Assembly: GCF_024228315.1 (NCBI RefSeq)
Contig: NZ_CP100454.1
Coordinates: forward strand, 2,914,001 to 2,978,000
Direction: 5' to 3'
Origin: Halomarina pelagica
GTDB taxonomy: Archaea; Halobacteriota; Halobacteria; Halobacteriales; Haloarculaceae
Length of the DNA stretch: 64,000 nt
Part shown: positions 3,108-56,163 of the stretch, in pieces
How the letters are laid out: every line of letters starts with the position of its first letter
Numbering within the stretch: the first letter of the stretch is position 1
The notes under the pieces: model-generated
What the model saw: only the letters and a program-made list of their open reading frames with translations
Databases searched by the model: none
What the model was told of the DNA's origin: nothing
Made by a program: the position numbers and the translations under genes

Positions 3108-4154
3108 ATGGGTTCGGACGACCTCCGCCGGCGGATGGAGTCGATGGGGGAGCGGTTCAACTTCGGGGAGTACGAGATCGAGGCCTACCTCGCGGTGCTC
3201 GACCACGGCGAGATGACCGCGAGCGACATCGCCGATCACACGAGCATCCCGCAGCCGCGCGTCTACGACACGGTGCGCAAGCTGAGCGATCGCGGGATGG
3301 TGGAGTTGCGCGAGTCGCGCCCGATGCGGGTCGTCGCGCTCGACCCGGACGACGTGTTCCCCGAGGTGCAGACCTCGCTCGGGGCGATGGTCGAGGAACT
3401 CGCGGACCGCTACACCGCCCCGACGCGGGAGACGGAGGCCGTCTCGCTCGTGAAGTCCCGCCCGAGCATCCTCCGGTACCTGGAGGCGATCATCGAGAGC
3501 GCGGAGTACGAACTCACGTGCTCGCTCACGCCCGACCTGCTTGCGCGCTTCGAGGATCGACTCGAAGCCGCCGTCGAGGCCGACGTGACCGTCGAACTGC
3601 TGGTGACGCCCGCCGCCGACGCGCCGTCCCCCGAGGAGTACGACTACGCCGCCGTCGCGACGGTGGCGCGGGCGCGCCGCGGGCTCACCACCCCGGTGAT
3701 GGCGGTCGCCGACGGGCAGCGCTCGGTCTACGCCACGCAGGACGCGCTCGACGGCGGATCGGAGCGCTACGGCGTCATCTTCAATCGCTCCTCGCTCGGC
3801 TTTCTCGTCTCCGGCTTCTTCAGCACCGTCCTCTGGACGACGGCCGACACGCTCCTCGATCACGTCGCGGGGCGGTCGTTCCCCCGTCAGTACGCCTCGA
3901 TCCGCCGCTGTCTGAAGGACCTCGGCGACGAACCTGGGACGTTCTACGCCCGGATCCGCGGGCGCGACGTCGTGACCGGCGAGCGCCGCACCGCCGTCGG
4001 CCGCATCGCCGAGGTGACGCTCGAACCGACCGCCGAACTCGCCACGCTCACGCTCGCGACCGACGACGGCGACGTGACCGTCGGCGGGCGCGTCGCCGCC
4101 CTGGAGGACATGGAGGCCCACGAGATCGTCGTCGACACGGAGCCGCTCGAATGA
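3108..4154 (+). CDS. TrmB-family sugar-responsive transcriptional regulator
   Basis: A 348-residue protein. The N-terminal winged helix (about residues 12-80) contains [23 protein letters not shown]-type helix-turn-helix sequence and the [14 protein letters not shown] wing. A linker helix and a C-terminal TrmB-type ligand domain of about 250 residues follow. In Halobacterium, TrmB represses or activates sugar and central metabolism genes depending on glucose. Near-consensus operator sites lie directly upstream, suggesting autoregulation and control of the divergent KDG kinase. The ATG at 3108 is preferred over upstream starts because it follows the AT-rich box and begins the family core. The last codon overlaps the HAD gene (ATGA). 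Confidence 0.85.
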
Positions 4155-5374
4155 ACTACTACGACCTCCTCTACGAGCTGTACGACGAGTTCGACGCGAA
4201 GACGCTGCTCGAGTACCAGAACTTCGTCGACGTGTTCCCCGCAATCGGGTCGCGCGTCGCGCTCGAACACTGGCGGCGCGCCAGCGACGAACTCGAGCGC
4301 AGGAAGGACGCCGTCCGGACGGCCTTTCCCGCGGGCGAGACGCTCGCCGCCGTCGCCGCCCACGCCACGCGCGACGAGGCGTTCACCGCGCTCGACCTCC
4401 TCGCGACGTACGACCGCGCGGTGAACGTGCTCGTGCTCGACGTGGACGAGACGCTGCGCTCGGCCGGCCAGACCGACAACGAGATCCCCCGCGACACGCT
4501 CCACCTCCTGACCGAACTCCACGAGGAGGGGATGCCGATCGTCATCTGCACCGGCCAGACGCTGGAGAACGTCAAGGGGTTCATCACGCAGGGGCTGGGC
4601 AACGAACTCGTCCACTCGGGGACGCTGAGCATCGTCTACGAGGCCGGCAACGGCGTCTTCACGCCGGGCCACGGGGCGGACACGAAGCGCCTGCTCTACG
4701 AGGGCCTCGACGAGACCGTGCGCGGCGTGTTCGACGAGGTGCGCGCGCGGGTCGTCTCGGACGCCCCCGAGGACATCCGCCGGGGCTGTCACCTGCAGGG
4801 CAACGAGTTCAACGTCACGCTCAAGCCCAACCACCAGACCGGTAGCCGCGAGGCCGTCGAGGTCATCGACCACGCGCTGTGCTACCTGCTCGATCTGGTC
4901 GGCGAGGCGACTCCCGACGGCGATCCCGAGGGCGCGCGGGCGTTCTACGCCGCCGCCGACCCCGAGATCCGGGAGGTGCTCGAACACCGCGGCGGCGTCC
5001 CCGACCTCGACGTGGGGGACGTCCCGGACGACGCGAGGGAACTCTTCGAGCGCGTCGACGTGGCCTACTACGAGGGCGACGCCGCCGAGGTCGGCAGCCT
5101 CGAACTCGACAAGGTGGCCGGCGTCCAGGCCGCCTTCGAGGTGCTCGGCGTCGACGACCCCTTCGCGCTCGTGATGGGCGACTCGAAGAGCGACCTCCGC
5201 GTGATGGAGTGGGTGGAGGCGAACGGCTGCGGCATCGCCGCCGCCCCCGAACACGCCTCCGAGGTCGTCCTCGAGCACGTCCTCTCGACGGACGAACTCG
5301 TCTTCGACCGCAACGACGCCACCTCCATGCTGCGGGTCGTCTACGCGCTCGACCGGCTGGCGGGACTGTCGTAG
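4151..5374 (+). CDS. HAD-superfamily phosphatase, translationally coupled to the TrmB-type regulator
   Basis: A 407-residue protein with HAD motif I DVDET (D97, D99), motif II as TGQT, and the late motif [11 protein letters not shown] near residue 345, so the acid residues for phosphoryl transfer are present. The first 90 residues form a helical extension that is unusual for a HAD enzyme. An insert (about 210-310) carries extra acidic helices. It shares an ATGA start-stop overlap with the TrmB gene, so the two are one operon. A sugar-phosphate or phosphosugar-acid substrate fits the context, but nothing in the sequence fixes it. Confidence 0.75.
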
Positions 5375-5539
5375 GCGGTGTATCTTCACGAACGATCGCG
5401 TGCGAGCGTCCGGACCGCGCTGACTGCTTTCGTCGGCGCGTTTCGACGTCCGTCACCGATTCACGTTCGTGCTGCGAGTGCCAGGTCTGGACATTCGTCC
5501 TAACTCCTATACGAGCATCCGATCTATAACCGACATAAT

Positions 5540-5836
5540 ATGGGTGCCGAGGCCACCGCTCGCGTCGTGAAGACGCCCGACGTCCTCCACGGCAAACCTC
5601 GCATCGAGGGGACCCGCATCGGCGTGTTCGCGATCGGCGAATCCATCCGACGGAGCGGTCAGACCGGCGAAGGCGTCCTCGACGGCTATCCCGATCTCTC
5701 TCACGAGCAGGTGATAGCGGCGCTTGAGTACTACGACGAGCACTCCGAAGCGATGGACATCCTCCGAACGCAACGTGAAGCCAACCGTCGCCGCGTCGAG
5801 CGACAGCCGCGCGCCCCCGTAGACGCCGATAGGTGA
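5540..5836 (+). CDS. DUF433-family antitoxin
   Basis: A 98-residue protein with the DUF433 pattern: VLHGKPRIEGTRIGVFAIGESI, then PDLSHEQVIAALEYYDEH. DUF433 proteins carry a helix-turn-helix-like fold and are the usual partners of DUF5615 PIN-like toxins. The next gene begins four bases downstream and is such a toxin. The ATG is preceded by an AT-rich stretch (ctataaccgac, near 5525). The C-terminal 25 residues are Arg-rich and may bind DNA or the partner. Confidence 0.75.
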   Translation: MGAEATARVVKTPDVLHGKPRIEGTRIGVFAIGESIRRSGQTGEGVLDGYPDLSHEQVIAALEYYDEHSEAMDILRTQREANRRRVERQPRAPVDADR

Positions 5837-5839
5837 CGC

Positions 5840-6094
5840 GTGTCGGGCAGTATCCGTCTTCTCCGTGATCAGAACGTCAACGAACAGTACGTCGACGCGT
5901 TCGCGGTCACGAACGACTGGGTCGTCTTTACCGGCGACGACGACTTCGAACGCGACCTCCCGTTCGGTGTCGTCCTCTATCACCAGGAGGGCCTCCCCGC
6001 ACCTGGTGTCGTTCTCGACGCGATCGAACTGATAGCCGATGCCTACGCCGACCACGGCGAGATCCTCGAATACGTCCCCGGGCAGTGGGTCTGA
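5840..6094 (+). CDS. DUF5615 PIN-like toxin, apparently shortened
   Basis: An 84-residue protein with a GTG start, four bases after the DUF433 gene. The pieces RLLRDQNVNEQYVDAF and NDWVVFTGDDDF match the first strand/helix and the later acidic strand of DUF5615 PIN-like proteins, which are presumed RNases. Two things are odd. The usual LLxDEN motif reads LLRDQN. The stretch normally lying between these pieces (a helix and strand, some 25-30 residues) is missing. The protein may be an inactivated toxin kept with its antitoxin. Family assignment is moderate; loss of activity is inference. Confidence 0.6.
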   Translation: MSGSIRLLRDQNVNEQYVDAFAVTNDWVVFTGDDDFERDLPFGVVLYHQEGLPAPGVVLDAIELIADAYADHGEILEYVPGQWV

Positions 6095-6241
6095 GCGCAC
6101 TCACGGCGTAGACTCCGACGCTCGACCGTGGACCCCCGTTCGAGCCGGCTCGTCAGCGGACGTAGTTCCGTCGCTCGCGTTCGGTGCTCGGGTTTCGAGG
6201 CCGGTTGGCTGTTGCCCCGTTCGCGCGGCCCTCCGACTGCC

Positions 6242-6838
6242 CTACCCCCACCCGAGCGCGTCGGGGAGGTCGCCGAACCCCCCGCCGTCGTACCGGTGCG
6301 CGGTCCACCCGGCGTTCCGCGCCCCCTCCACGTCGGCGTCGGCGTCTCCGACCATCGCATACTCGTCGGCGGGCAGTCGCTCCTCGGCGAGCCGAAACGG
6401 CGCGGCGTCGGGCTTGTGCGCGCCCGCCTCGTAGGAGGCGACGAACGCGTCGAAGTACCCGAAGAGCCCGTGGGCCCGCAGCTTGTGCTCCTGCCACTCC
6501 CTGACGCCGTTCGTGAGGACGCCCAGTTCGTACTCCGCCGAGAGCCGCGCGAGCGTCGCATCGGTGCCCCTCGGCGGGCGGGACAGTTCGACCTCGTGCG
6601 CCAGGAGCGCGTCCGCGAACTCGCCGGGATCGGAGCGCAGGCCGATCTCCGCGAACGCTCCCCGGACGGGATCCGGCTCGCACGCGTCGAACCGGGCGTA
6701 GAACGCCCCGCCGTAGCCGTCGATCGCCTCCTCGGGGAGGTCCCCCTCGATCGCGGCGACGGCGCTCCGGAGGACGTCGCCGTAGTCGCACGTGAGGCGG
6801 AGGAGCGTCCCGTCCAGGTCGAAGAAGATGGCTCTCAC
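6242..6838 (-). CDS. HAD-family hydrolase
   Basis: A 198-residue haloacid-dehalogenase-type phosphatase. Motif I is FFDLDGTLLRL at residues 5-15, motif II is VLTNGV, the motif III Lys lies in AHKPDAAPF, and motif IV is MVGDADADVEGARNAGW. All four catalytic motifs are intact, so a cytosolic phosphatase or dehalogenase activity is likely with unknown substrate. A GTG at 6838 is chosen because motif I begins three residues later; starting upstream would only add basic low-complexity residues. It stands alone. Confidence 0.8.
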   Translation of the reverse strand: MRAIFFDLDGTLLRLTCDYGDVLRSAVAAIEGDLPEEAIDGYGGAFYARFDACEPDPVRGAFAEIGLRSDPGEFADALLAHEVELSRPPRGTDATLARLSAEYELGVLTNGVREWQEHKLRAHGLFGYFDAFVASYEAGAHKPDAAPFRLAEERLPADEYAMVGDADADVEGARNAGWTAHRYDGGGFGDLPDALGWG

Positions 6839-6980
6839 GGGGAGTGGATTTCGACGCGATCGAGAAAGCACTACCCGTTCGAATCGGACTGGACCGCTCT
6901 CGGGACGGAGCGGGACGGGACGGGCTACGACGGCGGACGACGGCGGGTCGAGTTCGACTCGCCGGTCGCCTGCCGCGTGA

Positions 6981-7310
6981 CTACTCGCGGAACTCGAAGC
7001 GGACGCGGTCGCCCTGCTCGAGGGACGTACCGGCGAAGACGCGCTCCCAGTCCCCGCCGGACCGTCGGAGCGCGACGGTGTCGTGTCGGAGGCGGTCGCC
7101 CTGCAGCAGCGCGGGGCGGACCTGCACCCCGTAGCGGTCGGTCAGTCGCTCGACGGCGTCGCCGACCGTCGCGTCCGGCGACAGCGCCATCTGCGCGCGC
7201 TCGAGGCCGGCGCGGGCGACCAGCCAGCCGCGGAGTTCGACGCCGACGCCGATGGTCGCACCCGCCCCCGCGTCCCCGCTCGTCGCGTGTAGTCCCGTGC
7301 TCATAGTCAT
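6981..7310 (-). CDS. MoaD/ubiquitin-like beta-grasp protein
   Basis: A 109-residue protein. The central part, VELRGWLVARAGLERAQ followed by TVGDAVERLTDRYG and ending LEQGDRVRFEF, has the spacing of MoaD/ThiS beta-grasp proteins. It lacks the C-terminal Gly-Gly needed for thiocarboxylation or conjugation, so it is probably not an active sulfur carrier or SAMP modifier. A poly-T stretch about 25 bases upstream (7327-7335 on the plus strand) supports the start at 7310. It is divergent from fumC. Function is unknown. Confidence 0.55.
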   Translation of the reverse strand: MTMSTGLHATSGDAGAGATIGVGVELRGWLVARAGLERAQMALSPDATVGDAVERLTDRYGVQVRPALLQGDRLRHDTVALRRSGGDWERVFAGTSLEQGDRVRFEFRE

Positions 7311-7420
7311 ACGTTGGCACGAGGGGTCAAAAAGTTTACTCACCATCGAAAAAATAGCTCTCGGGTCCTCGGGACGACTTTCGGTGGGTTTTACCACCGT
7401 CCCGCGACTCTCGTACGCGT

Positions 7421-8830
7421 ATGAGCGACAACCAGTACCGCACGGAACGCGACAGTCTCGGGGAGATGCGGGTCCCGGCGGACGCCTACTGGGGTGCCCA
7501 GACCCAGCGCGCCGTGGAGAACTTCCCCATCTCCGGGATCACGTTCGGCCGCCGGTTCGTCCGGGCGCTCGGGGTCGTGAAGAAGGCCGCCGCGCGCGCG
7601 AACGTGGACCTCGGTCACGTCGACGAGGAGGCGGGCGAGGCCATCGTCGCCGCCGCGGACGAGGTCATCGCGGGCGAGCACGACGACCAGTTCCCCGTGG
7701 ACGTGTTCCAGACCGGCTCCGGCACGTCCTCGAACATGAACGCGAACGAGGTCATCGCCAACCGCGCGAGCGAGATCCTGGGACAGGAGGTCGGCTCACG
7801 ACACGTCCACCCGAACGACCAGGTGAACTTCGGGCAGTCGAGTAACGACGTGATCCCGACGGCGATGCACGTGAGCGCGCTGGAGGCCGTCGAGCGCGAC
7901 CTGCTCCCGGCGCTCTCCCGCCTCAGCGACGAACTCGCGGCGAAGGAGGCGGACTTCGACGGCGTCGTCAAGACCGGCCGCACGCACCTGCAGGACGCCA
8001 CGCCCGTCCGCCTCGGCCAGGAGTTCGGCGGCTACCGGACGCAGGTCGAGAAGGGCATCGAGCGCGTCCGGGACACGACCGACCACCTCGCCGAACTCGC
8101 GCTCGGCGGGACGGCCGTCGGGACGGGGCTCAACACCGACCCCGAGTTCCCCGAACTCGCCGCCGAGTACATCGCCGAGGAGACGGACCTCCCGTTCCGC
8201 GAGGCGGACAACCACTTCGAGGCGCAGGCCGCCCACGACGCGATGGCCGAGGCCCACGGCGCGCTGCGGGTCGTCGCCGGCTCGCTCAACAAGATCGCGA
8301 ACGACCTCCGCCTGCTCGCCTCCGGCCCGCGCAACGGCCTGGGCGAGATCGACCAGCCCGAGAACCAGCCCGGCTCCTCGATCATGCCCGGGAAGATCAA
8401 CCCGGTCGTCGCCGAGGCCGTCAACCAGGTCCACAAGCAGGTCGTGGGCAACGACGCCGCGGTGGCCGCCGGGGCCGCCGAGGGGCAACTCGATCTCAAC
8501 CTCTACAAGCCCGTCATCGCGCACAACTTCCTCGAGTCGGCGGAGATCCTCGCCAACGCCAGCGACGTCTTCGGCGAGCGCTTCGTCGCCAAGCTGGAGG
8601 CCGACCGCGAGCACTGCGAGGCGGCGGTCGAGCGATCCATGGCGATCGCGACGGCGCTCAACCCCCACATCGGCTACGACAGGGCCGCCGAGGTGGGCAA
8701 GACGGCGCTCGAGGAGGACAAGACCGTCCGCGAGGTGGCGATCGAGAAGGGCTACGTCACCGAGGAGGAGGCCGACGCGATCCTCGACCCGCGCGAGATG
8801 ACCGAGCCCGGCATCCTCGGGGGGGACTGA
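7421..8830 (+). CDS. fumC: Class II fumarate hydratase
   Basis: A 469-residue homotetrameric fumarase/aspartase-family enzyme of typical length. Conserved regions are FQTGSGTSSNMNANEVIANRA, HPNDQVNFGQSSNDVIPTAMH, TGRTHLQDATPVRLGQE and the signature GSSIMPGKINPV, which carries the catalytic serine loop. It interconverts fumarate and malate in the citric acid cycle. Within the superfamily the HPNDxVN and TGRTHLQDA motifs favour fumarase over aspartase or argininosuccinate lyase. A TATA-like box (ttttacca, about 7388-7395) lies some 26-33 bases before the ATG, and the 110-base upstream gap is shared with the divergent MoaD-like gene. Confidence 0.95.
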   Translation: MSDNQYRTERDSLGEMRVPADAYWGAQTQRAVENFPISGITFGRRFVRALGVVKKAAARANVDLGHVDEEAGEAIVAAADEVIAGEHDDQFPVDVFQTGSGTSSNMNANEVIANRASEILGQEVGSRHVHPNDQVNFGQSSNDVIPTAMHVSALEAVERDLLPALSRLSDELAAKEADFDGVVKTGRTHLQDATPVRLGQEFGGYRTQVEKGIERVRDTTDHLAELALGGTAVGTGLNTDPEFPELAAEYIAEETDLPFREADNHFEAQAAHDAMAEAHGALRVVAGSLNKIANDLRLLASGPRNGLGEIDQPENQPGSSIMPGKINPVVAEAVNQVHKQVVGNDAAVAAGAAEGQLDLNLYKPVIAHNFLESAEILANASDVFGERFVAKLEADREHCEAAVERSMAIATALNPHIGYDRAAEVGKTALEEDKTVREVAIEKGYVTEEEADAILDPREMTEPGILGGD

Positions 8831-9927: not shown

Positions 9928-11784
9928 ATGAGCGAGTACGACTACGAGGACCTCGGTCTCGTGGCGGGCCTCGAGATCCACCAGCAGCTCGACACCGCCG
10001 CGAAGCTCTTCTGTGACTGTCCGACGGAGCGCCGCGAGCCGGAGGAGGCGGTCCGCACCGTGACGCGGTACCTCCACCCGACGCGCAGCGAACTGGGCGA
10101 GATCGACGAGGCCGCCCTGGAGGAGAGCCGCGTCGACCGGGAGTTCCAGTACCTCGGATACGACACGACCTGCCTCGTCGAGGAGGACGACGAGCCGCCC
10201 CACCGAGTCGACGAGGAGGCGCTCGACGTGGCCCTGGAGATCGCCCAACTGCTCGACGCGACCCCGGTGGACGCGGCGCACGTGATGCGCAAGATCGTCG
10301 TGGACGGCTCGAACACGTCAGGGTTCCAGCGCTCGACGCTGATCGCCACCGACGGCGAGATCGAGACCGAGGAGGGGCCGGTCCGCATCGCGGACATGCT
10401 CCTGGAGGAGGAGAGCGCCGGTCGGATCGAGGAGACCGAGGAGGGCGTCGTCTACTCGCTCGATCGGCTGGGCATCCCCCTCGTCGAGATCGGCACGGAG
10501 CCGGACGTCCGCTCGCCCGAGCAGGCCCGGGACGCGGCCGCCCGGATCGGCATGTTACTCCGCTCGACCGGACACGTGAAGCGTGGGCTCGGCACCATCC
10601 GCCAGGACGTGAACGTCTCCATCGCGGAGGGCGCGCGGGTCGAACTCAAGGGGGTCCAGAGCCTCGACGACATCGACGACATCGTCCGCGAGGAGGTTCG
10701 CCGGCAGGTCGAACTGGTCGAGATCGGGAGGGAACTCCGGGAGCGCGGCGCGAGCGTCGGCGAGCCGCGGGACGTGACCGAGGTCTTCGAGGGCACCGAC
10801 AGCGGCGTCGTCGCGTCGGCGGAGGCGGTAGTCGCCGTCCCGCTGTTCGGCTTCGACGGGCTCGTCGGCCGGGAGATCCAGCCCGATCGCCGTCTCGGGA
10901 CGGAGTTCTCTGACCACGCGAAGCGCGCCGGTGCGGGCGGGATTTTCCACACCGACGAACTCCCCGCCTACGGCGTCACCGAGGACGAAGTCGCCGCGCT
11001 GCGCGAGGCGGTGGGGGCGGACGAGGCGGACGCCGTCGCGCTCGTCGCCGCCTCCCGGGCGGTCGCGGAGCGGGCCGTCGACGCCGTGGCGGAGCGCGCC
11101 CGCTCCGCGATCGAGGGCGTCCCCGAGGAGACGCGCGGCGCGAACGCCGACGGCACCTCCCGCTACCTCCGGCCGCTCCCCGGCGCGGCCCGCATGTACC
11201 CCGAGACGGACGTGCCGCCCGTCCCGCTCGACCCGACGGAGGTCGAGACGCCGGAACTGCTCACCGAGAAGGTCGACCGCTACGTCGCGGAGTACGGCCT
11301 CGACGCGGGGCTGGCCGAGCAGGTCGCCTACGGCCGCCGGATGCCGGTCTTCGAGGCGGCCGTCGAGGACGGTATCGACGCCACGCTCGCGGCCGGAACG
11401 GTCGAGTCGACCGTGACGGAACTGCGCCGCGACGACGTGCCCGTCGAGCAGCTCCGCGACGAGCACTTCCTCGACGTGCTCGCGCTCGTGGACGCGGGCG
11501 ACCTCGCCAAGGAGGGCGTCGGCGACGTGCTGCGCGCGCTCGCAGAGGACCCGACGCTCACCGCGGCCGAGGCGGCCGAGGAGGCGGGCCTGTCCGGCGT
11601 CGACGAGGCCGAGGTGCGAGAGACGGTCGCCGAGGTCGTCGAGCGAAACGGGGAGCAGGTCGAGGCGGAGGGGATGGGCGCGTTCTCCGCGCTCATGGGC
11701 GAGGCCATGGGCGCGCTCCGCGGCAGGGCCGACGGCGAGGTGGTGAGCACGGTTCTGCGCGAGGAGATCCAGAAGCGGGCGTAG
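9928..11784 (+). CDS. gatE: Glutamyl-tRNA(Gln) amidotransferase subunit E
   Basis: A 618-residue archaeal GatE. The start DLGLVAGLEIHQQLDTAAKLFC, the motif PLVEIGTEPD and IRQDVNVSI are typical of the GatB/GatE cradle domain. An AspRS-like insert (about 280-420) and the C-terminal YqeY-like tail (EGMGAFSALMGEAMGALRGRADG) follow. Together with GatD it converts Glu-tRNA(Gln) to Gln-tRNA(Gln) in archaea that lack glutaminyl-tRNA synthetase. The TATA-like box ttttatcg (9897-9904) lies 24-31 bases before the ATG. gatD is not adjacent in this window. Confidence 0.95.
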   Translation: MSEYDYEDLGLVAGLEIHQQLDTAAKLFCDCPTERREPEEAVRTVTRYLHPTRSELGEIDEAALEESRVDREFQYLGYDTTCLVEEDDEPPHRVDEEALDVALEIAQLLDATPVDAAHVMRKIVVDGSNTSGFQRSTLIATDGEIETEEGPVRIADMLLEEESAGRIEETEEGVVYSLDRLGIPLVEIGTEPDVRSPEQARDAAARIGMLLRSTGHVKRGLGTIRQDVNVSIAEGARVELKGVQSLDDIDDIVREEVRRQVELVEIGRELRERGASVGEPRDVTEVFEGTDSGVVASAEAVVAVPLFGFDGLVGREIQPDRRLGTEFSDHAKRAGAGGIFHTDELPAYGVTEDEVAALREAVGADEADAVALVAASRAVAERAVDAVAERARSAIEGVPEETRGANADGTSRYLRPLPGAARMYPETDVPPVPLDPTEVETPELLTEKVDRYVAEYGLDAGLAEQVAYGRRMPVFEAAVEDGIDATLAAGTVESTVTELRRDDVPVEQLRDEHFLDVLALVDAGDLAKEGVGDVLRALAEDPTLTAAEAAEEAGLSGVDEAEVRETVAEVVERNGEQVEAEGMGAFSALMGEAMGALRGRADGEVVSTVLREEIQKRA

Positions 11785-23575: not shown

Positions 23576-23703
23576 GTGTGAGACACCTCGGAAGCGGTAG
23601 GTAACCCTTGCTAGGGGGGGACAATAGCTGATCGGGTTGCTATCCGTGACTCGATAGGGCTATGGAGGCGTTCGGACGCGAGAGCACCGCGGAACGGCGT
23701 CGG

Positions 23704-23747
23704 TCAGTCGTGGACCAGCACGTCCAGCACCACGAGATCGTCGGTCG
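23704..23747 (-). repeat. Repeat copy A: diverged 3' end of the TPP-enzyme gene
   Basis: About 40 of 44 bases match the first 44 bases of the repeat at 27266, starting exactly at the stop codon. Read on the minus strand it encodes LVVLDVLVHD and a stop. No rest of the enzyme gene is attached. It is the oldest-looking of three copies (A, B and C at 23704, 25434 and 27266). Confidence 0.65.
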
Positions 23748-23833
23748 ATGTCGATACGTGGACGCTATGGGTCGGTATCGAGGCGAATGTTGCGGTCCGT
23801 CAGCGCCGCTGCTCGCGGCGTTACCGACGTTGC

Positions 23834-24961
23834 TCAGGCGAATACGCGTAGAACGACGTACCCGTTCGCCGTTCGGAGTCGCTCTATCGTATCGAACTGG
23901 GAGAGATGGGCACGTAGATCGAGTTCACGACGATGGACGACCGCAAGTTCGCCGTCGGGAGCGAGAACGTCGTGTATCCCGGAGAATAGCTCGGAGAGTA
24001 CATCAGCACCCGCGTGGGTTGGTGGATTACAGAACACCCGATCGAACGTCTGATCGGCGACGCCCTCGGCGCAATCAGCAGTCACAACGGTCCCATCTAC
24101 CCCGGATGCACGGAGGCTGCACTCCGCACACGAGGTCGCTACCCGGTCATCGTCGCTGAGCCACACGTCACAGTCCGCGACGCGGCCAGCGTATGTCCCG
24201 ACAACACCGTATCCACAGCAGATATCCAGTACCTTCTCGCCGTCTTCGATGGTCGTCGTTTCCAACAATAACCGTGTACCGCTGTCCAATTGAGATGGGG
24301 AAAACAACCCTGGGACGGTGATGAGCGAGAGCGTGACACCGTTTATCTCTACGCCGAGTTCTCGCGGCGTGGCGTAGGTTGGTGGCTCAAATGACGGTGG
24401 CCGAGTCGCCTCGAGGAGAACGCACCCGTCGTACTCAGAGCGCTGTTCGACGGTTGCAGCGAGCTCGCGCAAACACTGTTCGTACCGCGTGAGGCCGGTT
24501 CGCTTCGATGCCGCTATGTAGAGACTGCCGCCAGGTCGTAGGACAGAAAGGGCATCCGCGATGCGTTGCTGTCCGACGGACAGCGGAGTGTAGGGTTTCG
24601 GAGCGTATGCGACGGTGTCGAACGACCAGTCGAGAGTCGTGATATCTGCGACGAGCGTGGTTGTTGCGTCCGCGTCGTTCTCGATAGCGTTACGCTCACA
24701 GAGTCGCGTGGCGCGAGCGCTCGACGACGCCATGTGAACGGCGTCAGCGCGATCAGCGAGAACGACGCCGACGACGCCGTAGTTCGCTTCTAGACTGAGG
24801 AAATGCCCGAGATCGGTTTCCCAGAGAGATTCGACCAGGAGGAGTTCAGCGTTCCGGAAGGAGCGTTTCGAACAGACTCCGTCCGCGGTGTGGAATCGAT
24901 AGATTGACCGTGCGCCCGAGACGCGCGATTTGAGGGCCAGTTCGTAGGGTGCGTACCTCAT
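23834..24961 (-). CDS. RsmC/RlmG-like class I SAM methyltransferase with two MTase domains
   Basis: A 375-residue protein. The C-terminal half has the SAM motif KVLDICCGYGVVGTYAGRV (about 240-258), the acidic strand after it, and the catalytic motif FCNPPTHAG (about 308-316), the form used by guanine-N2 methyltransferases RsmC and RlmG. The N-terminal half is a degenerate copy of the same fold, also typical of that family. It probably modifies rRNA. The base composition is less GC-rich than the neighbours and the gene lies between repeat copies A and B, so acquisition by transfer is likely. The ATG at 24961 begins MRYAPYELAL; nine codons upstream is another possible start. Confidence 0.75.
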   Translation of the reverse strand: MRYAPYELALKSRVSGARSIYRFHTADGVCSKRSFRNAELLLVESLWETDLGHFLSLEANYGVVGVVLADRADAVHMASSSARATRLCERNAIENDADATTTLVADITTLDWSFDTVAYAPKPYTPLSVGQQRIADALSVLRPGGSLYIAASKRTGLTRYEQCLRELAATVEQRSEYDGCVLLEATRPPSFEPPTYATPRELGVEINGVTLSLITVPGLFSPSQLDSGTRLLLETTTIEDGEKVLDICCGYGVVGTYAGRVADCDVWLSDDDRVATSCAECSLRASGVDGTVVTADCAEGVADQTFDRVFCNPPTHAGADVLSELFSGIHDVLAPDGELAVVHRRELDLRAHLSQFDTIERLRTANGYVVLRVFA

Positions 24962-25433
24962 CGAGCGCCCCCTCCGAATAACGGCCAAAGCGGGCGAAAT
25001 CGGCGACCGGAGTCATAGTCGGTGTGGATGCGATGCTGTCGACTGTGGTGTGACCGACGCGATGGTGCGTTGGGCATTTAGGTGGGTTCGGCAGGTCATA
25101 ATTTGGACGACCAGACAGCCCACGCACTGCGCTTCAGCTGGTGAGAACCTGTAAAATCGGTTCACGCACGGCTAAGCGCAGGGCGCGAACCAAGTGCCGA
25201 TCAGCGTGACGCTTCGGTGAGAATCACAACCCATCGTAATCCGGTTGGGTCACCGAACCGCCCACAGTCGGCGAGCCGGCCGAACCTATCCTCGCTTTCG
25301 CGCGGTGACGTGCGTCACCGAAATACGAAGCTCGGCCCGAAGCTCTTGTTCAATCTACCTCCGCGTTCGTACTCCCTGTATTAAAAATTCGTGTTCGTGG
25401 GTGTCGGGATGACGTTCGGGGGCGCGACGTCCG
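24962..25433. other. Gene-free stretch with a 16-base palindrome
   Basis: No credible coding region is seen on either strand. The stretch contains the palindrome GGTGACG-TG-CGTCACC at 25304-25319, a possible operator, and an AT-rich box (tattaaaaattc, 25379-25390) close to repeat copy B. Nothing else is recognised. Confidence 0.4.
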
Positions 25434-25491
25434 TCAGTCGTGCACCAGCACGTCCAGCACCACGGGACCGTCCGTCGCCAGCGCCTCCTCG
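25434..25491 (-). repeat. Repeat copy B: exact 58-base copy of the TPP-enzyme gene 3' end
   Basis: All 58 bases are identical to 27266-27323, again starting at the stop codon. On the minus strand it encodes EEALATDGPVVLDVLVHD and a stop. A further 9-base match (GAACGCCGG, 25509-25517) continues after a 17-base insert. The perfect identity implies a recent duplication. Confidence 0.8.
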
Positions 25492-25518
25492 GTGCGTATC
25501 GGTTCGTTGAACGCCGGT

Positions 25519-25953
25519 TCAGGAGCACTCGCCCTGCGCGAGTGCGTTCAGTCGGTCGCCGAGGTTAATGACGAACACCATCCGGTAGCAATCGACGTTC
25601 TCCGGACGGATGCCGGTGTCCTCCGGCGTCACCCGCAGCCAGCGTTCCCGTCCGTCGAGGCGGAAGGAGAACCGATAACTTCCGCGTTCGTCGGGCCAGT
25701 CGGAAAACTCGATGCCCGTCGGACTCGACGGATCGTCCGCGCCCTCGATCGTCCGTTCGGCGACGCGTATCGGATCGCCTTCGTATTCGACCGCGAGTTC
25801 GAATCTCTCCTCGGTCTCGCGGCGATTGAGAACGTCGACCGCCTCTAGCCGTATCTGTTTGTCTGATCGTGGTTTTGGAACACCGAGGGTTGAACAGCCC
25901 GCAAGGAGGGACAGCGACACGAAGCCTGCTTTCAGGAGTGTCCGTCTATTCAT
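25519..25953 (-). CDS. Small Tat/lipobox-type lipoprotein
   Basis: A 144-residue protein starting MNRRTLLKAGFVSLSLLAGC: twin arginines, a hydrophobic stretch and a lipobox (LLAGC) with the lipidated Cys at residue 20, as in most haloarchaeal lipoproteins. The remainder is a beta-rich acidic domain (about 35-144) with no motif I recognise. It should sit on the outer face of the membrane. It lies between repeat copies B and C, next to another exported protein, so both may be cargo of the same acquisition event. Confidence 0.7.
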   Translation of the reverse strand: MNRRTLLKAGFVSLSLLAGCSTLGVPKPRSDKQIRLEAVDVLNRRETEERFELAVEYEGDPIRVAERTIEGADDPSSPTGIEFSDWPDERGSYRFSFRLDGRERWLRVTPEDTGIRPENVDCYRMVFVINLGDRLNALAQGECS

Positions 25954-25997
25954 CGCTATTCATAGAGGTCAGAATTATAAAAAGAGGATGGATCTAC

Positions 25998-27041
25998 TCA
26001 GATTGATGAAGTCGAAGTTCTCGCGGTAAATGGAAGAAATACGCGATAAACCGCTCCATGGTCGGCCATCTCCTGTACCTCCGCATACGGTGGTAGATCT
26101 TTGTGACGAACCCGCTTAGAGGGGAATGTATCTATGATTTCCCTAGTATCCATCCCCGTAGCGTTTTTTTCGGTGATTGATGACTGCTGTGACAGCACTG
26201 AATTAATATTTGGGTCCTCGGTAGTCAGCCACCATTCAACGTCGGCATACGGGACTTCATATGGATCATTAACTGTTGGTATGCTTGCCTCCTGTCGAGT
26301 GGTCACTCTCACTTCATCACCTATATCGCGACTCGTAATTGCAAACCGGAGAGTGTTTGTACAGTCATGAGGGTAGCTAGGTTTATATTCGAATTTTGGT
26401 CCCCATTCCTCTTCGTCATCAGGTGTTGAACCGTATTCGTTTGCTAATGCGTCGATAAACTCAGCGACTGCAATGTATGTGCCTGCAGTCTCCGACACTG
26501 CACCGATGGCTGCCTCTGCAGCGTTTTTCATCTGCTCTCCGTAAAAGTCAGAAGAAGCAGGTTCATCGTCGCGAGATGCACCTATCCATTCGCCAGTCCC
26601 GCCAACTTGGCTAACGATCGCACACTCATTTGGTTTGTGATTCGTGACTGTTGCTTTCTGATGGATGATGGATCGATTTTTATACCAAGTACTTCCTCCT
26701 CCAGGTCGGTCAAGCGATGTGAAGTGGCCAGCAGTGACGAAGTCATGCAGGTAGCCACCGCCATCGTAGTTCGGATTCGTGTACGAACCGTAATAATCCG
26801 ACTCAATACCTGCTACTCCCAAATAATCCCGACCATTGTACGTCTTTTGTACAGGATTTGTTTCGTAGATTTCGACAGGATAGTCACCTCCACCACATGG
26901 ATCCGGACCACAGGTCAAATCGTTTTGTTCTAGGTCACGTGCTTTAACGGGCATAGATGACCCGAGGAGAGCAGCGCTGCTAGCGAATACGACCGACTTC
27001 AGGTACCTTCGTCGACTTCTTCCCGGATTATCTTCTGCCAC
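25998..27041 (-). CDS. Tat-exported protein of unknown function (AT-rich gene)
   Basis: A 347-residue protein with a Tat signal (SRRRYLKSVVFASSAALLGSS at residues 9-29, likely cut near VKA-RD). The mature part has a close Cys pair in CGPDPCGGG, and DFVTAGHFTSLD and NHKPNECAIVSQVGG, with some resemblance to secreted trypsin-like folds (a His after TAGH). A catalytic triad cannot be confirmed. The gene is much more AT-rich than the chromosome around it, and its promoter region (27042-27265) is extremely so. Transfer from a lower-GC source is the simplest explanation. Confidence 0.65.
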   Translation of the reverse strand: MAEDNPGRSRRRYLKSVVFASSAALLGSSMPVKARDLEQNDLTCGPDPCGGGDYPVEIYETNPVQKTYNGRDYLGVAGIESDYYGSYTNPNYDGGGYLHDFVTAGHFTSLDRPGGGSTWYKNRSIIHQKATVTNHKPNECAIVSQVGGTGEWIGASRDDEPASSDFYGEQMKNAAEAAIGAVSETAGTYIAVAEFIDALANEYGSTPDDEEEWGPKFEYKPSYPHDCTNTLRFAITSRDIGDEVRVTTRQEASIPTVNDPYEVPYADVEWWLTTEDPNINSVLSQQSSITEKNATGMDTREIIDTFPSKRVRHKDLPPYAEVQEMADHGAVYRVFLPFTARTSTSSI

Positions 27042-27265
27042 TCGATACAGTTTATACGTAGAGTATTTATACCTTTCCTACACTAGATTACTACTGCTAT
27101 AACTCTACTTTGGATAAAATAATACTGTAGTATTCGATTATATTTGTACTAATATATTGGTCGTATATACCATATAATATATCGAAAACACATAAATTTA
27201 TACAATATTAAATTAATAAAACGATTTAAATGTTCCAGGAATGTAGATGGTAAACCGCATGTCTA
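27042..27265. other. Extremely AT-rich intergenic stretch
   Basis: About 220 bases, mostly A and T, with runs such as atatattggtcgtatatacc. They lie between the start of the Tat-exported gene and the stop codon of the TPP enzyme. The sequence is unlike any other part of the window. It holds the exported gene's promoter but no gene. Confidence 0.6.
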
Positions 27266-28972
27266 TCAGTCGTGCACCAGCACGTCCAGCACCACGGGAC
27301 CGTCCGTCGCCAGCGCCTCCTCGAACGCCGGCGCGATCTCCTCCTCGCGCTCCACGAGGCGACCCGTCGCGCCGTGGCTCTCGGCGTTCGTCGGGATGTC
27401 CACCGGCGGCTCGAAGTCCATGCCGACGTAGTCGTGATCCGAGTCCTCGCCCCCGAAGATGGCGTTCGTGTTGTCCTTCAGGATGCGGTAGTTGCGGTTG
27501 TCGGGGACGACGACCGTGAGGTCCACGTCGTAGCGCGCCGCCGAGTAGAGCGCGTGGGGGTAGTAGAGGTACGACCCGTCGCCGACGTAGCCGACGACCT
27601 GCCGGGGGTCGTCGGACTCGCGCTCCGCGATGGCCGCGCCCACCGAGGCGGGCAGGCCGTAGCCCAGGCCGCCGCCCTTGTTCGAGATCAGCTGCTCGGC
27701 CCCCATCGGCCAGCGCAGGAGCAGGGGGTACTTCGCGGTGATCCCCTCGTCCACGACGTAGGCGTCCGGCGCGACCGAGCGCAGGGCGTCCACGAGGCCG
27801 GCCTTCGAGGCCCGCGGGTCGTCCGGGTCGGCGTCGCCGCGGCCGATCTTCTCCATCGTATCGGCGAGCGACTCCTTCAGCGCGCGGACCTTCTCGACGC
27901 GCTCCGCACGCGTCTCCTCGTCGACGCGCGCCGCGACGCGCTCGGCGAGGTCGGCCATCACGTCGCCGGGATCGCCGAGGATCGCCGCGTCGGCGCGCTG
28001 TTGCTTGGCGAGGTCGTGAGCGTTCGTCCCGACGTGGATCCGGGTCGCGTGGTCGGGAACGAGCGGGTTCTCGTGGCGCAGGAGCGTCGTGTTGGTCGAG
28101 CAGCCGACGAACGCGAGCGCGTCGCTGTTCATCAGCATCGACGCGAAGCCCTCCTGGGGCGGGATGTGCGACACCCAGAGTTCGTGGTCGGTCGGGAAGT
28201 TCACCTCGCAGGCGAGCATCTCGCCGTGGACGCGCGCGCCGCAGGCCTCCGCGAGGTCGACGGCCGCCTCGACGGCCTCGTATCCCGACCGGGCGATCTC
28301 GTCGCCGAGGACGAACACCGGCGCGTCGGCCTCGGCGAGCAGGTCGGCGGCCGCGTCGATCTGCGCCTCGTCGCCCCGCCCGGCGGTCGGGATCGGCCCG
28401 AGCGCCTCGGGCTCGAGGTCCGTCTCCGCGAGCATCACGTCCATCGGGAGCGCGAGGAAGACGGGGCCGGTGGGCGGCGTCAGCGCGATGCGGAACGCCC
28501 GGCGGAGCAACCCGGGGAGCGCGCGCACGTCGGTCACCTCCGCGTCGAACTTCGTGAACTGCCGGACCATCTCCTGGAGATCGCCCGAGAGTAGCGGTTC
28601 CTCGTGGCGGAAGTCGAGTTCGTGGTTCCCGGCGGTGACGACGATCGGCGCGCCGACCCACTTCGCGGCGTAGAGGTTGCCGAGGCCGTGGGCGAGGCCG
28701 GGCGTGATGTGCAGGTTCACGACGCCCGCCGGCATCACCGACGGGTCGTGGTGGCCGTGGTAGCGCCGCGTCTGGGCGTACCCCGAGGCCATCCCCACGG
28801 CGACGTCCTCGTGCAGGCCGAGGACGTAGTCGAGGTCGCTGTGGGAGAGCGCCTCGAGAACCGGGAGTTCGGTCGTCCCGGGGTTCCCGAAGACGCGCGT
28901 GACGCCGTACCGTTCGAGGGTGGCGACGAACAGGTCCGCGCCGGTGGAGCCGTCTGCGTCAGTCATCGCCAC
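27266..28972 (-). CDS. TPP-dependent decarboxylase/acetolactate synthase-like enzyme (benzoylformate decarboxylase type)
   Basis: A 568-residue thiamine-diphosphate enzyme in three domains. The PYR domain has FGNPGTTELPVLEAL and the catalytic Glu in GLHEDVAVGMASGYA. The central domain lies at about 190-340. The PP domain has the TPP/Mg motif GYVGDGSYLYYPHALYSAARYDVDLTVVVPDNRNYR. The GNPGTTELP start favours benzoylformate or phenylpyruvate-type decarboxylases over acetolactate synthase. No small regulatory subunit gene is nearby. The last 58 bases of the gene are repeated at 25434 and, diverged, at 23704. Confidence 0.82.
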   Translation of the reverse strand: MAMTDADGSTGADLFVATLERYGVTRVFGNPGTTELPVLEALSHSDLDYVLGLHEDVAVGMASGYAQTRRYHGHHDPSVMPAGVVNLHITPGLAHGLGNLYAAKWVGAPIVVTAGNHELDFRHEEPLLSGDLQEMVRQFTKFDAEVTDVRALPGLLRRAFRIALTPPTGPVFLALPMDVMLAETDLEPEALGPIPTAGRGDEAQIDAAADLLAEADAPVFVLGDEIARSGYEAVEAAVDLAEACGARVHGEMLACEVNFPTDHELWVSHIPPQEGFASMLMNSDALAFVGCSTNTTLLRHENPLVPDHATRIHVGTNAHDLAKQQRADAAILGDPGDVMADLAERVAARVDEETRAERVEKVRALKESLADTMEKIGRGDADPDDPRASKAGLVDALRSVAPDAYVVDEGITAKYPLLLRWPMGAEQLISNKGGGLGYGLPASVGAAIAERESDDPRQVVGYVGDGSYLYYPHALYSAARYDVDLTVVVPDNRNYRILKDNTNAIFGGEDSDHDYVGMDFEPPVDIPTNAESHGATGRLVEREEEIAPAFEEALATDGPVVLDVLVHD

Positions 28973-29017
28973 TCGTGATCTCGGAGGGTTGATAAAGCTG
29001 TGCGGCGACCGCCTCGA

Positions 29018-30031
29018 TCATCGCCCGCTCTCCGTCGGCGCGAGCGCGTCGATGGTCGCACCGATCTCGTCGGGGTCGGCCCCCCGCGGGAAGGAGACGG
29101 AGACGGCGTCGACGCCGTCGATGGCCTCGAACTCGGCGAGCCGCTCTCCGGCCTCGTCGGGTGTCCCCGCGACCGCGAGCGAGTCGAGCAGGTCGTCGTC
29201 GACGGCGGCCATCGCGGCCGCGCGGTCCCCGTCCTGCCAGGCGTCGTACACCGCGCGGGCGGTCTCCTCGTACCCCTGGCGGGCGAGGTTGTCGCGGTAG
29301 AACGTGCCCATCCCTCCGACGTAGAACGCGGTGTGTTGCCTGACGAGTTCGCGGGCGCGCTCGCGGTCGGGGAGCGCGGCGCAGGTCAGCGCGAGCGTGA
29401 CGCGCACGTCGTCGGAGTCGCGCTCGCCCTTCTCGGCCCCGCGTTCGAGGTCCTCGACGCGATCGGCGATCCCGTCGGCGGTGAGCATGAGCGCGTGCCA
29501 GCCGTCGGCGAAGCGCCCCGCTAGCTCGACCGCCTTCGGTCCCATCCCGGCCACCTCGACCGGCGGGACGGGGTCCGGGGGCGTACAGCGCAGGCGGAAG
29601 CCAGAGAGGTCGAAGTACTCGCCGTCGTACTCCACCTCCTCGCCCGAGAGCACCCGCTTTACGACGTCGACCGTCTCGCGCGTCCGGCGGAGCGGGTTGC
29701 CGTAGTCGACGCCGTGCCAGTTCTCGATGACGATGGGGCCACTCGGACCGAGGCCGAGGCGGAAGCGACCCCCCGAGACCTCCTGTAGCGTGGCCGCGGT
29801 CTGGCCGATGAGTGCCGGCGAGCGCGAGTAGATCGGCATGATGCTCGTCCCGAGGTCGATCGAGTCGGTGCCCTCGGCGATGCTCGTCAGCACGACGGCC
29901 GCGTTTCGCCCCCACGTCTCGGGGATCCACGCCGCGTCGTAGCCGAGGTCCTCGGCGCGCCGGGCCTGCTCGACGAACGCCCCGACGCTCGCCTGGGCCG
30001 CGACCGGGAGGAAGACGTCTCTGTCGGTCAT
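29018..30031 (-). CDS. F420-dependent luciferase-like (LLM) oxidoreductase
   Basis: A 337-residue TIM-barrel LLM protein: VEQARRAEDLGYDAAWIPETWGRNA near the N-terminus, then IDLGTSIMPIYSRSPALIGQTAATL and GGRFRLGLGPSG, the flavin/F420 phosphate-binding segment. Family members include methylene-H4MPT reductase (Mer) and F420-dependent alcohol or sugar dehydrogenases, with hydride transfer on F420. The ATG at 30031 overlaps the stop of the SDR gene (ATGA), so the two form an operon. A second LLM gene lies at 38612. The substrate is unknown. Confidence 0.85.
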   Translation of the reverse strand: MTDRDVFLPVAAQASVGAFVEQARRAEDLGYDAAWIPETWGRNAAVVLTSIAEGTDSIDLGTSIMPIYSRSPALIGQTAATLQEVSGGRFRLGLGPSGPIVIENWHGVDYGNPLRRTRETVDVVKRVLSGEEVEYDGEYFDLSGFRLRCTPPDPVPPVEVAGMGPKAVELAGRFADGWHALMLTADGIADRVEDLERGAEKGERDSDDVRVTLALTCAALPDRERARELVRQHTAFYVGGMGTFYRDNLARQGYEETARAVYDAWQDGDRAAAMAAVDDDLLDSLAVAGTPDEAGERLAEFEAIDGVDAVSVSFPRGADPDEIGATIDALAPTESGR

Positions 30032-52482: not shown

Positions 52483-52485
52483 TTT
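52471..52485. other. attL: left junction of the integrated element
   Basis: ATGATGA-GCT-TCTTT. The left arm is host (salactin) sequence, the right arm is element. The core shared with attR is GAGCTTC at 52476-52482. Confidence 0.8.
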
Positions 52486-52540
52486 GTGTTTGAATGTAAT
52501 AGAAAATGTCTATACTCTACCCCGAGATAGTCTAACTGCG

Positions 52541-53074
52541 ATGCCAGAACGAAGCCAGATAAACATTCGAATTGCCCCCGAGATGAAAGAGCAGTGGGAG
52601 GCCGCCATCGAGGATCACCCTGAGGCCCGGACGCTCACCGACTTAATCCGAATTAGCGTCACGCACGAGTTATACGACCGCCAAGCAACCGATGAGACGG
52701 TCTCTGACGACCCGAAGCTTGGCGAGATATTAGAGGGCGTCCGATCGATTCAATCCGCTCAGGAAGACCTCACGAGCCGCATAGACCAACTGGAACGAGA
52801 GGTCAAGCACCGACCGGAGGTGACGAACATGGCGGGCCGGATCTACGATCGGCTCCCCGATCTGAAGCCCGGTATAGAAGACTGGAAACTCCATGTCGAG
52901 AGATACCGGCCAGAAGAGTACACGGTGTGGCCGGGGACCGTGGAGGCCCTCGCTGAGGCGCTCGAAGAACCGGAGTATCGTGTCCGAGAGGGTGCGGAGT
53001 ACCTGGCGGAAAACGATATCGACGTTCGCACCGAGACTGTCGGTGGCGAAGAGCGATTCTGGAGGATAGAATGA
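52541..53074 (+). CDS. RHH / coiled-coil / winged-helix DNA-binding regulator
   Basis: A 177-residue protein. Residues 1-45 ([19 protein letters not shown], then [14 protein letters not shown]) look like a ribbon-helix-helix DNA-binding unit. Residues 58-90 form a coiled coil ([19 protein letters not shown]). Residues 115-177 form a winged helix ([21 protein letters not shown], then a wing with [11 protein letters not shown]). It is coupled to the integrase gene by ATGA overlap and lies next to attL, the place for a recombination-directionality or repressor protein. The ATG at 52541 is used because the RHH strand begins there. Confidence 0.75.
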
Positions 53075-54030
53075 ACGAATACATCGAGGTCTACTTGGAG
53101 TTGGTCAAGGACGACAAGAGCGAGGGGACGTATGCGGTTCGCAAATCGTGTCTGAAGCAGTTTGACGAGTGGATCGAGACTGAAGGATATGACCTGGGAG
53201 AGATATCGGCTCTTGAACTACGGAAGTATTTCAAAAAGCTCCTCGATGAAGGATGCTCTTCGACCTACGTCGTCAGCCACTACAACTCCGTCAGAGGTCT
53301 CTACAATCTCCTGACGAGCAACTCGATCGGCCTTCGAGAGGATCACCCCTTCGATGAGAAGCTCCTCAAGTCGCTACATAATAAGCATAACAAACGGACG
53401 AAGAAGCGCGAGGACGGCAAACCGATCTACCTCTCCGAGGACGACGTTGATATCCTATGTCGGTACGTTCCGAAGCCCAAGCTCCGAAACCGGCTCCTCT
53501 TCCGCTTGATGCTTCACACCGGGGTCCGACAATCAGAGGCCGCGAGGATCAAGTTGGAGAACATGAACCGTGAGAAGCGATCGATCGAGATCCCCACCAG
53601 GAAGATCGAGGGGGAGCCGATTCGAGTCGTGTCCTGGCAACCGAGCTTGGACCTGCTCATGGACCGCTGGATCGACGTAGAGCGTAACGCCTACAACCAC
53701 GCTTCGGAGAGTCCGTATTTGTTCGTCTCCGCTCGCTCTGACCGGATCATAGACGAGTATCCGAACGACATTCTCCGAAAGGCCGCCAAATCCGCCGAGG
53801 AGGATGGCCACGAGTATCTCAACGAAGTGCTCTATCACGATGCCGCGGGGATGCCGCGTTACCGGTACACGGCTCACAGTCTCCGTCACGGATGCGCCTA
53901 CCATCTCCTGAAGGCGGGGACTCACCTTCGAACCATTCAGAAATACCTCGGTCACACCGATGTAGAGCGGACTGAGGTCTACCTCCAACTCACCGACGAC
54001 GACGTACTGGATACGGTTAAGTGGGGCTGA
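53071..54030 (+). CDS. int: Tyrosine recombinase (integrase) of the element
   Basis: A 319-residue XerC/D-type integrase. The N-terminal SAM-like domain is at about 1-95. Catalytic residues are R153 (HTGVRQSEA), probably K178, H269 and R272 (AHSLRHG), H295 (KYLGHTD) and the nucleophile Y304 (TEVYLQL); all are present, so it looks active. It should join and excise the element at the GAGCTTC core in the salactin gene. The attachment site flanks its own operon. One YAGAGRYCTCTR motif lies inside the gene (53293). Confidence 0.92.
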   Translation: MNEYIEVYLELVKDDKSEGTYAVRKSCLKQFDEWIETEGYDLGEISALELRKYFKKLLDEGCSSTYVVSHYNSVRGLYNLLTSNSIGLREDHPFDEKLLKSLHNKHNKRTKKREDGKPIYLSEDDVDILCRYVPKPKLRNRLLFRLMLHTGVRQSEAARIKLENMNREKRSIEIPTRKIEGEPIRVVSWQPSLDLLMDRWIDVERNAYNHASESPYLFVSARSDRIIDEYPNDILRKAAKSAEEDGHEYLNEVLYHDAAGMPRYRYTAHSLRHGCAYHLLKAGTHLRTIQKYLGHTDVERTEVYLQLTDDDVLDTVKWG

Positions 54031-54105
54031 CCCCCTCTCCTCAGAGACCTCTACGATGCTCCTCCGGGGCTAACAGTCAAGTTCTTCGACCCTAATCCTG
54101 GGGCC

Positions 54106-54282
54106 ATGCATCCGAAGCTCCTCAGTATCGCCCTCGGGGTGGCGGTCTTGATCGGTACCGTCCTCGTTGGCTTCCTCTTCGCCGGACCGTATAGCCCGAT
54201 ATTCCATATCGCCGGGATGCTCGCCGCAATCCTCGTCCAACGGATAACCGAACGGCGATTATCGGCCGAAATCGCCACGTAG
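54106..54282 (+). CDS. Two-span mini membrane protein of the element
   Basis: A 58-residue protein with hydrophobic segments at about residues 5-27 (LLSIALGVAVLIGTVLVGF) and 32-45, then a charged tail ITERRLSAEIAT. It follows the integrase by 75 bases on the same strand. It could be a membrane-associated virus-like or superinfection-control protein; there is no family evidence. Its stop overlaps the start of a YAGAGRYCTCTR motif (54281). Confidence 0.55.
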   Translation: MHPKLLSIALGVAVLIGTVLVGFLFAGPYSPIFHIAGMLAAILVQRITERRLSAEIAT

Positions 54283-54663
54283 AGGCCTCTAAAGTCGGGA
54301 GGAAGCTTATTATGACCTTCATCGTAGCCAGAATTGGACCCAACCAAGAAAGACTCCCGCGACTAACGGAGACCAGGAATCACCGCGATCCCCTTCGGGG
54401 AGGCTCCCACTTTTTCATTTCATCGACCCTCGATCCCGTACTTTCGCCACTGAGCGATTTCTCGCTCTCGGTGGCTCCTACTTACCCGTCGAGACGAAGG
54501 TGCTCTCTCAGGGCTAACTGTGGCCCCTGACGAGACGGCATAAGTGATAGTCACCTTAGAGAGATGCCCACGGTTCACCAACAATCCGAAATCTACACTC
54601 CTTCGAAATACCCACCGCCAAAATTTCTCATAGATTGAAGTATCGAGGGTAGTCAAGTGGGGT
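54283..54663. other. Gene-free stretch with several hairpins
   Basis: No convincing gene on either strand. Hairpins are visible: TCCCC-TT-CGGGGA near 54389-54400, CCACTGAGCGA/TCGCTCTCGGTGG near 54447-54474, and TCAGGG...CCCTGA near 54507-54530. The stretch could encode a structured RNA or hold the promoter of the 206-residue membrane protein; the sequence alone does not decide. Confidence 0.4.
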
Positions 54664-55995: not shown

Positions 55996-56163
55996 ATGCG
56001 AGACACCCACACGACGATTACCGTCCCCAGGTACGCTAAGAGGGCGCTCGAAGCCGACAAAAACGAGAACTTCCACGAGAAGATCCCGTGGTGGGTGTAC
56101 ATCACTGAGGGTCTCGGAGTCGACGTGGAGGAGTACAAGGAGGAATCGGAGGTGACCGCCTAA
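55996..56163 (+). CDS. RHH-like mini-protein of the element
   Basis: A 55-residue protein: HTTITVPRYAKRALEADKNE, then IPWWVYITEGLGVDVEEYKEE. A short strand followed by two helices and an acidic tail is the ribbon-helix-helix plan, and it shares this plan with the mini-proteins at 58970 and 59098. It could regulate element genes. It ends just before a hairpin and a T-run. Confidence 0.6.
   Translation: MRDTHTTITVPRYAKRALEADKNENFHEKIPWWVYITEGLGVDVEEYKEESEVTA

Follow-up and report, generated by a model that had tools for sequence, protein, structure and literature searches.

Insertions bounded by copies of a TPP-enzyme gene 3' end in Halomarina pelagica, one of them carrying a methyltransferase gene behind a conserved structured leader RNA

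Of 68 archaeal mobile elements, 14 are integrated in the 3'-distal part of a protein gene (PMC6563490). The attachment sites of archaeal elements are 40 to 50 bp long, and the target gene is restored (PMC8371274). Successive insertions at one site, with a repeat between them, are known from tandem casposons in one gene (PMC6563490). Archaea have few known or predicted cis-regulatory RNAs (PMC7247131), and most transcripts of Haloferax volcanii are leaderless (PMC3986360). Elsewhere, inducible rRNA methylases of the Erm type (PMC5118997), riboswitches and ribosomal-protein leaders (PMC7247131) are the closest described regulatory systems.

The locus described here lies in a window of 64,000 nucleotides, the whole stretch of DNA analysed, from the chromosome of Halomarina pelagica (NZ_CP100454.1, positions 2,914,001 to 2,978,000). 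Two inserts, E1 and E2, are found at the 3' end of a gene for a TPP-dependent enzyme. In window coordinates, the features of the target and the insert borders are:

27266-28972, minus strand: gene of a TPP-dependent, benzoylformate-decarboxylase-like enzyme, 568 aa (Pfam TPP_enzyme N, M and C), the intact integration target
27266-27323, minus strand: copy 1, the 3' end of the TPP gene and gene-side junction of E1, 58/58 with copy 2
25434-27265, minus strand: insert E1, apparently the newer, 1832 bp including copy 2 and 1774 bp unique, absent from the sister species (G004)
25434-25491, minus strand: copy 2, repeat of the TPP 3' end where E1 meets E2, 58/58 with copy 1 and with a 53-bp match to copy 3
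23704-25433, minus strand: insert E2, apparently the older, 1730 bp with copy 3 included, no more than a single transcription unit, absent from G004
23704-23747, minus strand: copy 3, outermost and diverged TPP 3' end (40/44), with the chromosome resuming at 23703 and a junction equal to the empty site of G004

The best NCBIfam model for the TPP enzyme was PRK07092, with a score below its cut-off, and the orthologue in G004 showed 96% amino acid identity. A repeat search between 20 and 30 kb of the window gave one outstanding family (D1; 27261-27323, 25429-25491 and 23699-23761). The other families in this region were short and about 63-81% alike, which is unremarkable in coding DNA of 70% G+C. 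In the whole genome the 3' end of the TPP gene occurred three times only, each time in the orientation of the gene. An earlier note on this DNA, made from its letters, had listed 58 identical bases at 25434 and 27266 and a match of 40 of 44 bases at 23704; the repeat search returned both, as 27266-27323 against 25434-25491 and as 23704-23747 against the gene end. The same note let all copies start at the stop codon. This was correct for the gene and the middle copy, but the match between the middle and the outer copy (25425-25477 with 23695-23747; 47 of 53 shared bp identical) extended 9 bp past the stop codon, so that only the gene/middle pair ends exactly there. Three of the four differences in the outer copy were unique to it and the fourth was the base of G005 and most relatives, a pattern which indicates that the outer copy was free to drift. 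No clear dyad was found in the 58-bp core.

In G004 the stop codon of the TPP gene was followed directly by the homologue of window position 23703 and beyond. When 300 bases of the TPP gene end and 300 bases after the outer copy were joined and compared with G004, 580 of 600 bases (96.7%) were identical and no gap occurred; the DNA of the region as a whole was about 93% identical. The 3562 bp from 23704 to 27265 are therefore an insertion, and the empty site that the earlier note had proposed to look for in related strains exists. The cargo was likewise absent from the TPP gene end of the other congeners fetched. The unique DNA of the inserts contained 48-61% G+C, compared with 71-72% in the flanks, and the stretch 27060-27265 only 26%.

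The gap-free empty site also rejects the alternative given in the earlier note, namely tandem duplication of the TPP gene and subsequent loss of all but the 3' ends. Such a history would account for repeats in direct order that all derive from one gene. It would leave the different G+C content of the DNA between the repeats and its absence from this site in G004 and the other congeners unaccounted for; no TPP remnant was present beyond the repeats and no relative with partial copies was found, and this explanation is scarcely credible. Full-length tandem TPP copies shrinking in place, which the note had named as the observation that would speak against integration, were seen in no relative. 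Of the 146 family genomes, only this one, G118 and G162 had the gene end more than once, and none of the others showed an array of the E1+E2 type. The match of G118, the only close double match, was rejected as an array and consisted of two full-length TPP paralogues; the matches of G162 lay on two contigs, one of which begins with a TPP fragment while the other has a full-length gene.

Both sides of the TPP gene differed between the genomes compared. G004 and G005 contained about 3.2 kb directly before the gene that are missing from the window (29011-29033; 4699-7964 of locus L034), probably as the result of a deletion at the opposite end of the TPP gene. In G004 this DNA encodes a TAXI-type solute-binding protein and a fused TRAP permease. 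G005 (10045-10094 of locus L035) lacked the sulfatase gene found after the site in both the window and G004, and variability hence extends to this side of the TPP gene.

The locus is best read as foreign DNA that was acquired in two steps, one older than the other, and is bounded by copies of the TPP 3' end. The order, E2 and then E1, would follow from the divergence of the repeats only, as the gene/middle pair is perfect and the outer copy diverged. It is reasonably probable that both inserts entered the TPP gene end by recombination of circles and that E2 brought a complete unit regulated by an RNA switch. Two DNA circles, each with a copy of the TPP 3' end, would have recombined successively with the gene end, and after each crossover of the Campbell type the gene would have been intact again, with its displaced 3' end beyond the insert. 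E2, with cargo from another haloarchaeal family, would have entered first and its outer repeat would since have diverged. E1 would have entered later between the TPP gene and E2, leaving the perfect 58-bp pair. The interpretation of the earlier note, integration into the end of a gene in two events of different age, holds in the light of the G004 empty site and the divergence of the repeats.

The most likely agent would be a site-specific recombinase that acted in trans or has since been lost. This putative enzyme is placed outside the inserts because no integrase lies within them and the array is absent from the 146 family genomes. As already noted from the letters, no integrase or integrase remnant was present inside the insert, and all PF00589 matches of the genome were located outside 23704-27265. 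The search for a remote integrase using this site, also suggested in the earlier note, yielded none that could be attributed to the TPP site. A search of the vicinity of 20 further copies of the E2 unit gave no homologue of the integrases of this genome, and the att-core pattern was not found in viral contigs. A tyrosine recombinase (53071-54030) and a primase-like protein (56346-58238) are encoded in window 52484-58238, about 26 kb from the repeats; this region is a candidate for a separate integrated element.

The inserts share with the archaeal elements in the 3' ends of protein genes (PMC6563490, PMC8371274) direct repeats of the 3' end of the target gene at both borders, a restored gene, repeats of about 40-60 bp and an empty site in a close relative that is precise to the repeat. 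With 44-58 bp and a restored gene, the repeats agree with archaeal integrase sites, whose att length is 40-50 bp (PMC8371274). Unlike those elements, the inserts are far smaller (1.7-1.8 kb each) and carry no integrase, replication or virus genes, so that the integrase expected within an element of the tyrosine-recombinase type is missing. A TPP-enzyme gene is not described as a target of archaeal integrated elements in the portions of the two papers considered. The repeat between successive insertions resembles the tandem casposons of PMC6563490, but the inserts lack Cas1 and terminal inverted repeats. No transposase was found among the annotated ORFs, and the search between 20 and 30 kb gave no inverted-repeat pair at the two borders. 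Casposon target duplications are much shorter than the repeats found here.

The main rival explanation dispenses with an integrase. Circular fragments that happened to have a TPP 3' end, perhaps supplied by a relative through mating or transformation, would have been caught by single-crossover homologous recombination over 44-58 bp. The lack of an integrase in or near the inserts and repeats of pure host gene sequence suit this explanation, and an identical inner pair is expected if the donor DNA came from the same species. On the other hand, 44-58 bp are short for such recombination, and two independent events would have had to share, by coincidence, almost the same border at the stop codon; capture by homology is therefore considered rather unlikely. 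The layout of gene end, E1, copy, E2 and copy, with all genes on the minus strand and inserts of about 1.7-1.8 kb without integrase, would also agree with an integron-like system. The TPP 3' end would then be a fixed entry site for cassettes that each end in a copy, the newest being nearest to the entry, with all genes in one direction and a distant recombinase. Such a system is very unlikely, since the array occurs in this genome only, no recombinase was identified and the E2 unit is present in 20 other genomes without flanking gene-end repeats.

According to the favoured reading, successive recombination of circles, E1 is the newer insert. The cargo named in the earlier note, an RsmC-like methyltransferase, a lipoprotein and an AT-rich exported protein, was as described there. 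Two of these genes belong to E1:

25998-27041, minus strand: exported protein with twin-arginine-type signal, 347 aa, an orphan without homologues found
25519-25953, minus strand: lipoprotein ORF, 144 aa, lipobox LLAGCS

The DNA upstream of the gene of the exported protein is AT-rich (27060-27265). No relative of this protein was found in 59 genomes, plasmids, phages and viral contigs; the only matches in genome contigs were spurious. It had no match in the PDB, which was searched with this protein only, and the single-sequence AlphaFold model was uninformative (pLDDT 29). Neither E1 protein matched a Pfam, NCBIfam or PHROG entry, and the lipoprotein gave only weak N-terminal matches to other lipoproteins. 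No DNA relatives of E1 were present among the loci compared.

E2 did have a DNA relative. From 25397 to 23844 it aligned at 73% DNA identity with G038, a genome of another family. As this homology spans the TATA-like box to the end of the methyltransferase gene, E2 is hardly more than one transcription unit. The unit consists of the TATA-like box, a structured leader RNA of about 280 nt, a leader ORF of 39 codons and the RsmC-like methyltransferase gene, in this order:

25379-25387, minus strand: TATA-like box TTTTTAATA, about 25 bases before the start of the RNA, from sequence
25187-25354, minus strand: 5' domain of the structured leader RNA (model R1), from covariance model and covariation
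25078-25196, minus strand: 3' domain of the leader RNA with competing helices, from conserved helix pairing
25183-25191/25159-25167, minus strand: helix alpha
25181-25189/25119-25127, minus strand: helix beta
25119-25125/25080-25086, minus strand: helix gamma
24958-25077, minus strand: leader ORF, 39 codons; its stop codon and the methyltransferase start share the sequence ATGA, as in nearly all relatives
23834-24961, minus strand: RsmC-like class I methyltransferase, 375 aa from ATG (Pfam MTS 2e-46; PDB 1dus, 2pjd)

The methyltransferase resembles the rRNA guanine-N2 methyltransferases RsmC and RlmG and MJ0882 (PDB 2pjd, 4dcm and 1dus) in its C-terminal MTS domain, its two-domain length and its best sequence matches. 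It differs from RsmC and RlmG in being patchy in haloarchaea and below the NCBIfam cut-offs. With 85 bits against a cut-off of 295 for the RsmC equivalog, it cannot be assigned to RsmC (16S G1207), and the score for RlmG was also too low. Its putative substrate is rRNA. A search of a defence library gave a methylase-domain match only. Enzymes of this type were present in 41 of 391 genomes of the class and in no viral contig. In the tree, the E2 enzyme grouped with G383 of another family (99/93), next to members of families f6 and f5, and family f1 required at least three changes. On the evidence of this tree the E2 gene has been transferred horizontally, since the window copy groups with another family and several changes of family are forced.

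Taken by itself, the insertion adds a small new example to a known process; the unexpected part is found on E2, in its structured leader and leader ORF. The earlier note had recognized the methyltransferase as cargo but had missed the structured RNA that accompanies it on the older insert. The stretch upstream of the methyltransferase gene was far better conserved than the surrounding DNA, a T-rich stretch occupied the position of the TATA-like box in most relatives, and individual leader sequences folded alike in the 5' domain. With a covariance model of 163 positions for this domain, the RNA was found in 38 of 391 haloarchaeal genomes, with scores of up to 152 bits and nearly always directly before the methyltransferase gene. 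In 37 sequences 92.6% of the pair cells were standard pairs compared with 82.3% after shuffling, double changes occurred in 18 of 31 pairs, and the covariation score was 0.372 compared with 0.190 for shuffled alignments and at most 0.10 for slid partners; these figures lean upward because related sequences were used and were aligned by fitting them to the model. Despite this, the slid controls make the structure secure, and the leader RNA has a conserved secondary structure with covariation. A match of the model at 4023-4152 of the window (26.7 bits) lies in a coding region and was taken as chance.

The window member had no match in Rfam 15 at E≤1, and ten other leader loci gave only tRNAs and two sub-threshold microRNA matches. 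Comparison with the host rRNA operon gave chance-level matches only, so mimicry of rRNA was not seen. The leader looks like a previously undescribed archaeal RNA switch.

In the 3' domain, helix beta excludes both alpha and gamma, and gamma ends 2 bases before the AUG of the leader ORF. Mutually exclusive helices reaching a start codon, as in a cis-regulatory leader, are thus present. Alpha and gamma were paired in 93.1% of cells and beta in 94.4%, compared with at most 63% in slid controls; compensatory changes in the alternative helices were few (5 and 7 cells). The minimum-energy fold of the window leader contained the beta side. The leader ORF comprised about 35-60 codons and ended in the ATGA overlap in nearly all loci. 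Its substitutions were even over the codon positions, without bias, and its peptide sequence is therefore hardly constrained, in keeping with a leader ORF; a short Q-H-R motif recurs in it. In Haloferax volcanii, ATGA overlaps are coupled by termination-reinitiation (PMC6728339).

These features make the leader a candidate translational switch in archaea. Alpha and gamma would sequester the start of the leader ORF and beta would free it; translation of the ORF would then feed the methyltransferase through the ATGA overlap. It is proposed tentatively that the leader may belong to a new class of archaeal translational RNA switches, sensing a signal (perhaps a metabolite or an inhibitor directed at the ribosome) and controlling a horizontally moving rRNA-methylase-like enzyme by exclusive helices and a coupled leader ORF. 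The logic would be comparable to that of the inducible Erm methylases, but in haloarchaea. With Erm-type methylases (PMC5118997) and with riboswitches and ribosomal-protein leaders (PMC7247131) it would share a methylase gene behind a leader ORF, alternative helices and a predicted gating of translation. Unlike these systems it is archaeal, has a long structured RNA before the leader ORF and a hardly conserved leader peptide, and shows no likeness to rRNA.

Two exceptions speak for the leader as an independent module. In G007 the 5' domain (87.5 bits; 7887-8026 of locus L198, minus strand) preceded a polysaccharide-flippase-like gene, with a small ORF overlapping the start of that gene, and in G284 the RNA was present without the methyltransferase. 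The same two copies would be expected of a free small RNA acting in trans, with a gene that is no more than a neighbour of the methyltransferase gene. This is quite unlikely, as the order of RNA, leader ORF and methyltransferase with the ATGA overlap is kept in nearly all genomes, helix gamma ends so close to the leader AUG, and the leader ORF overlaps the next gene even in G007. If the leader is a switch, its passage with the methyltransferase across many haloarchaeal families would provide a concrete and testable case of RNA-based translational control. The insertions show a route by which single regulated genes may enter a haloarchaeal chromosome at the end of a metabolic gene without a visible integrase.

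The surroundings of other copies of the unit were varied. In 5 of 20 loci (L163, L167, L149, L151 and L158), some of them close kin, the methyltransferase unit was located within about 1.3 kb of a tRNA gene, and in two of the five about 50-70 bases from a tRNA-Ser gene. This is suggestive of tRNA-linked insertion of the unit. In L156 (G104) the unit was flanked by a direct repeat of 35 bp (91%), at a distance of about 4.2 kb on the left and 4.8 kb on the right. Haladaptatus caseinilyticus ZJ1 carried the unit on plasmid unnamed6, with the RNA at 339399-339558 of NZ_CP111042.1 (90 bits) and the methyltransferase WP_266083113.1.
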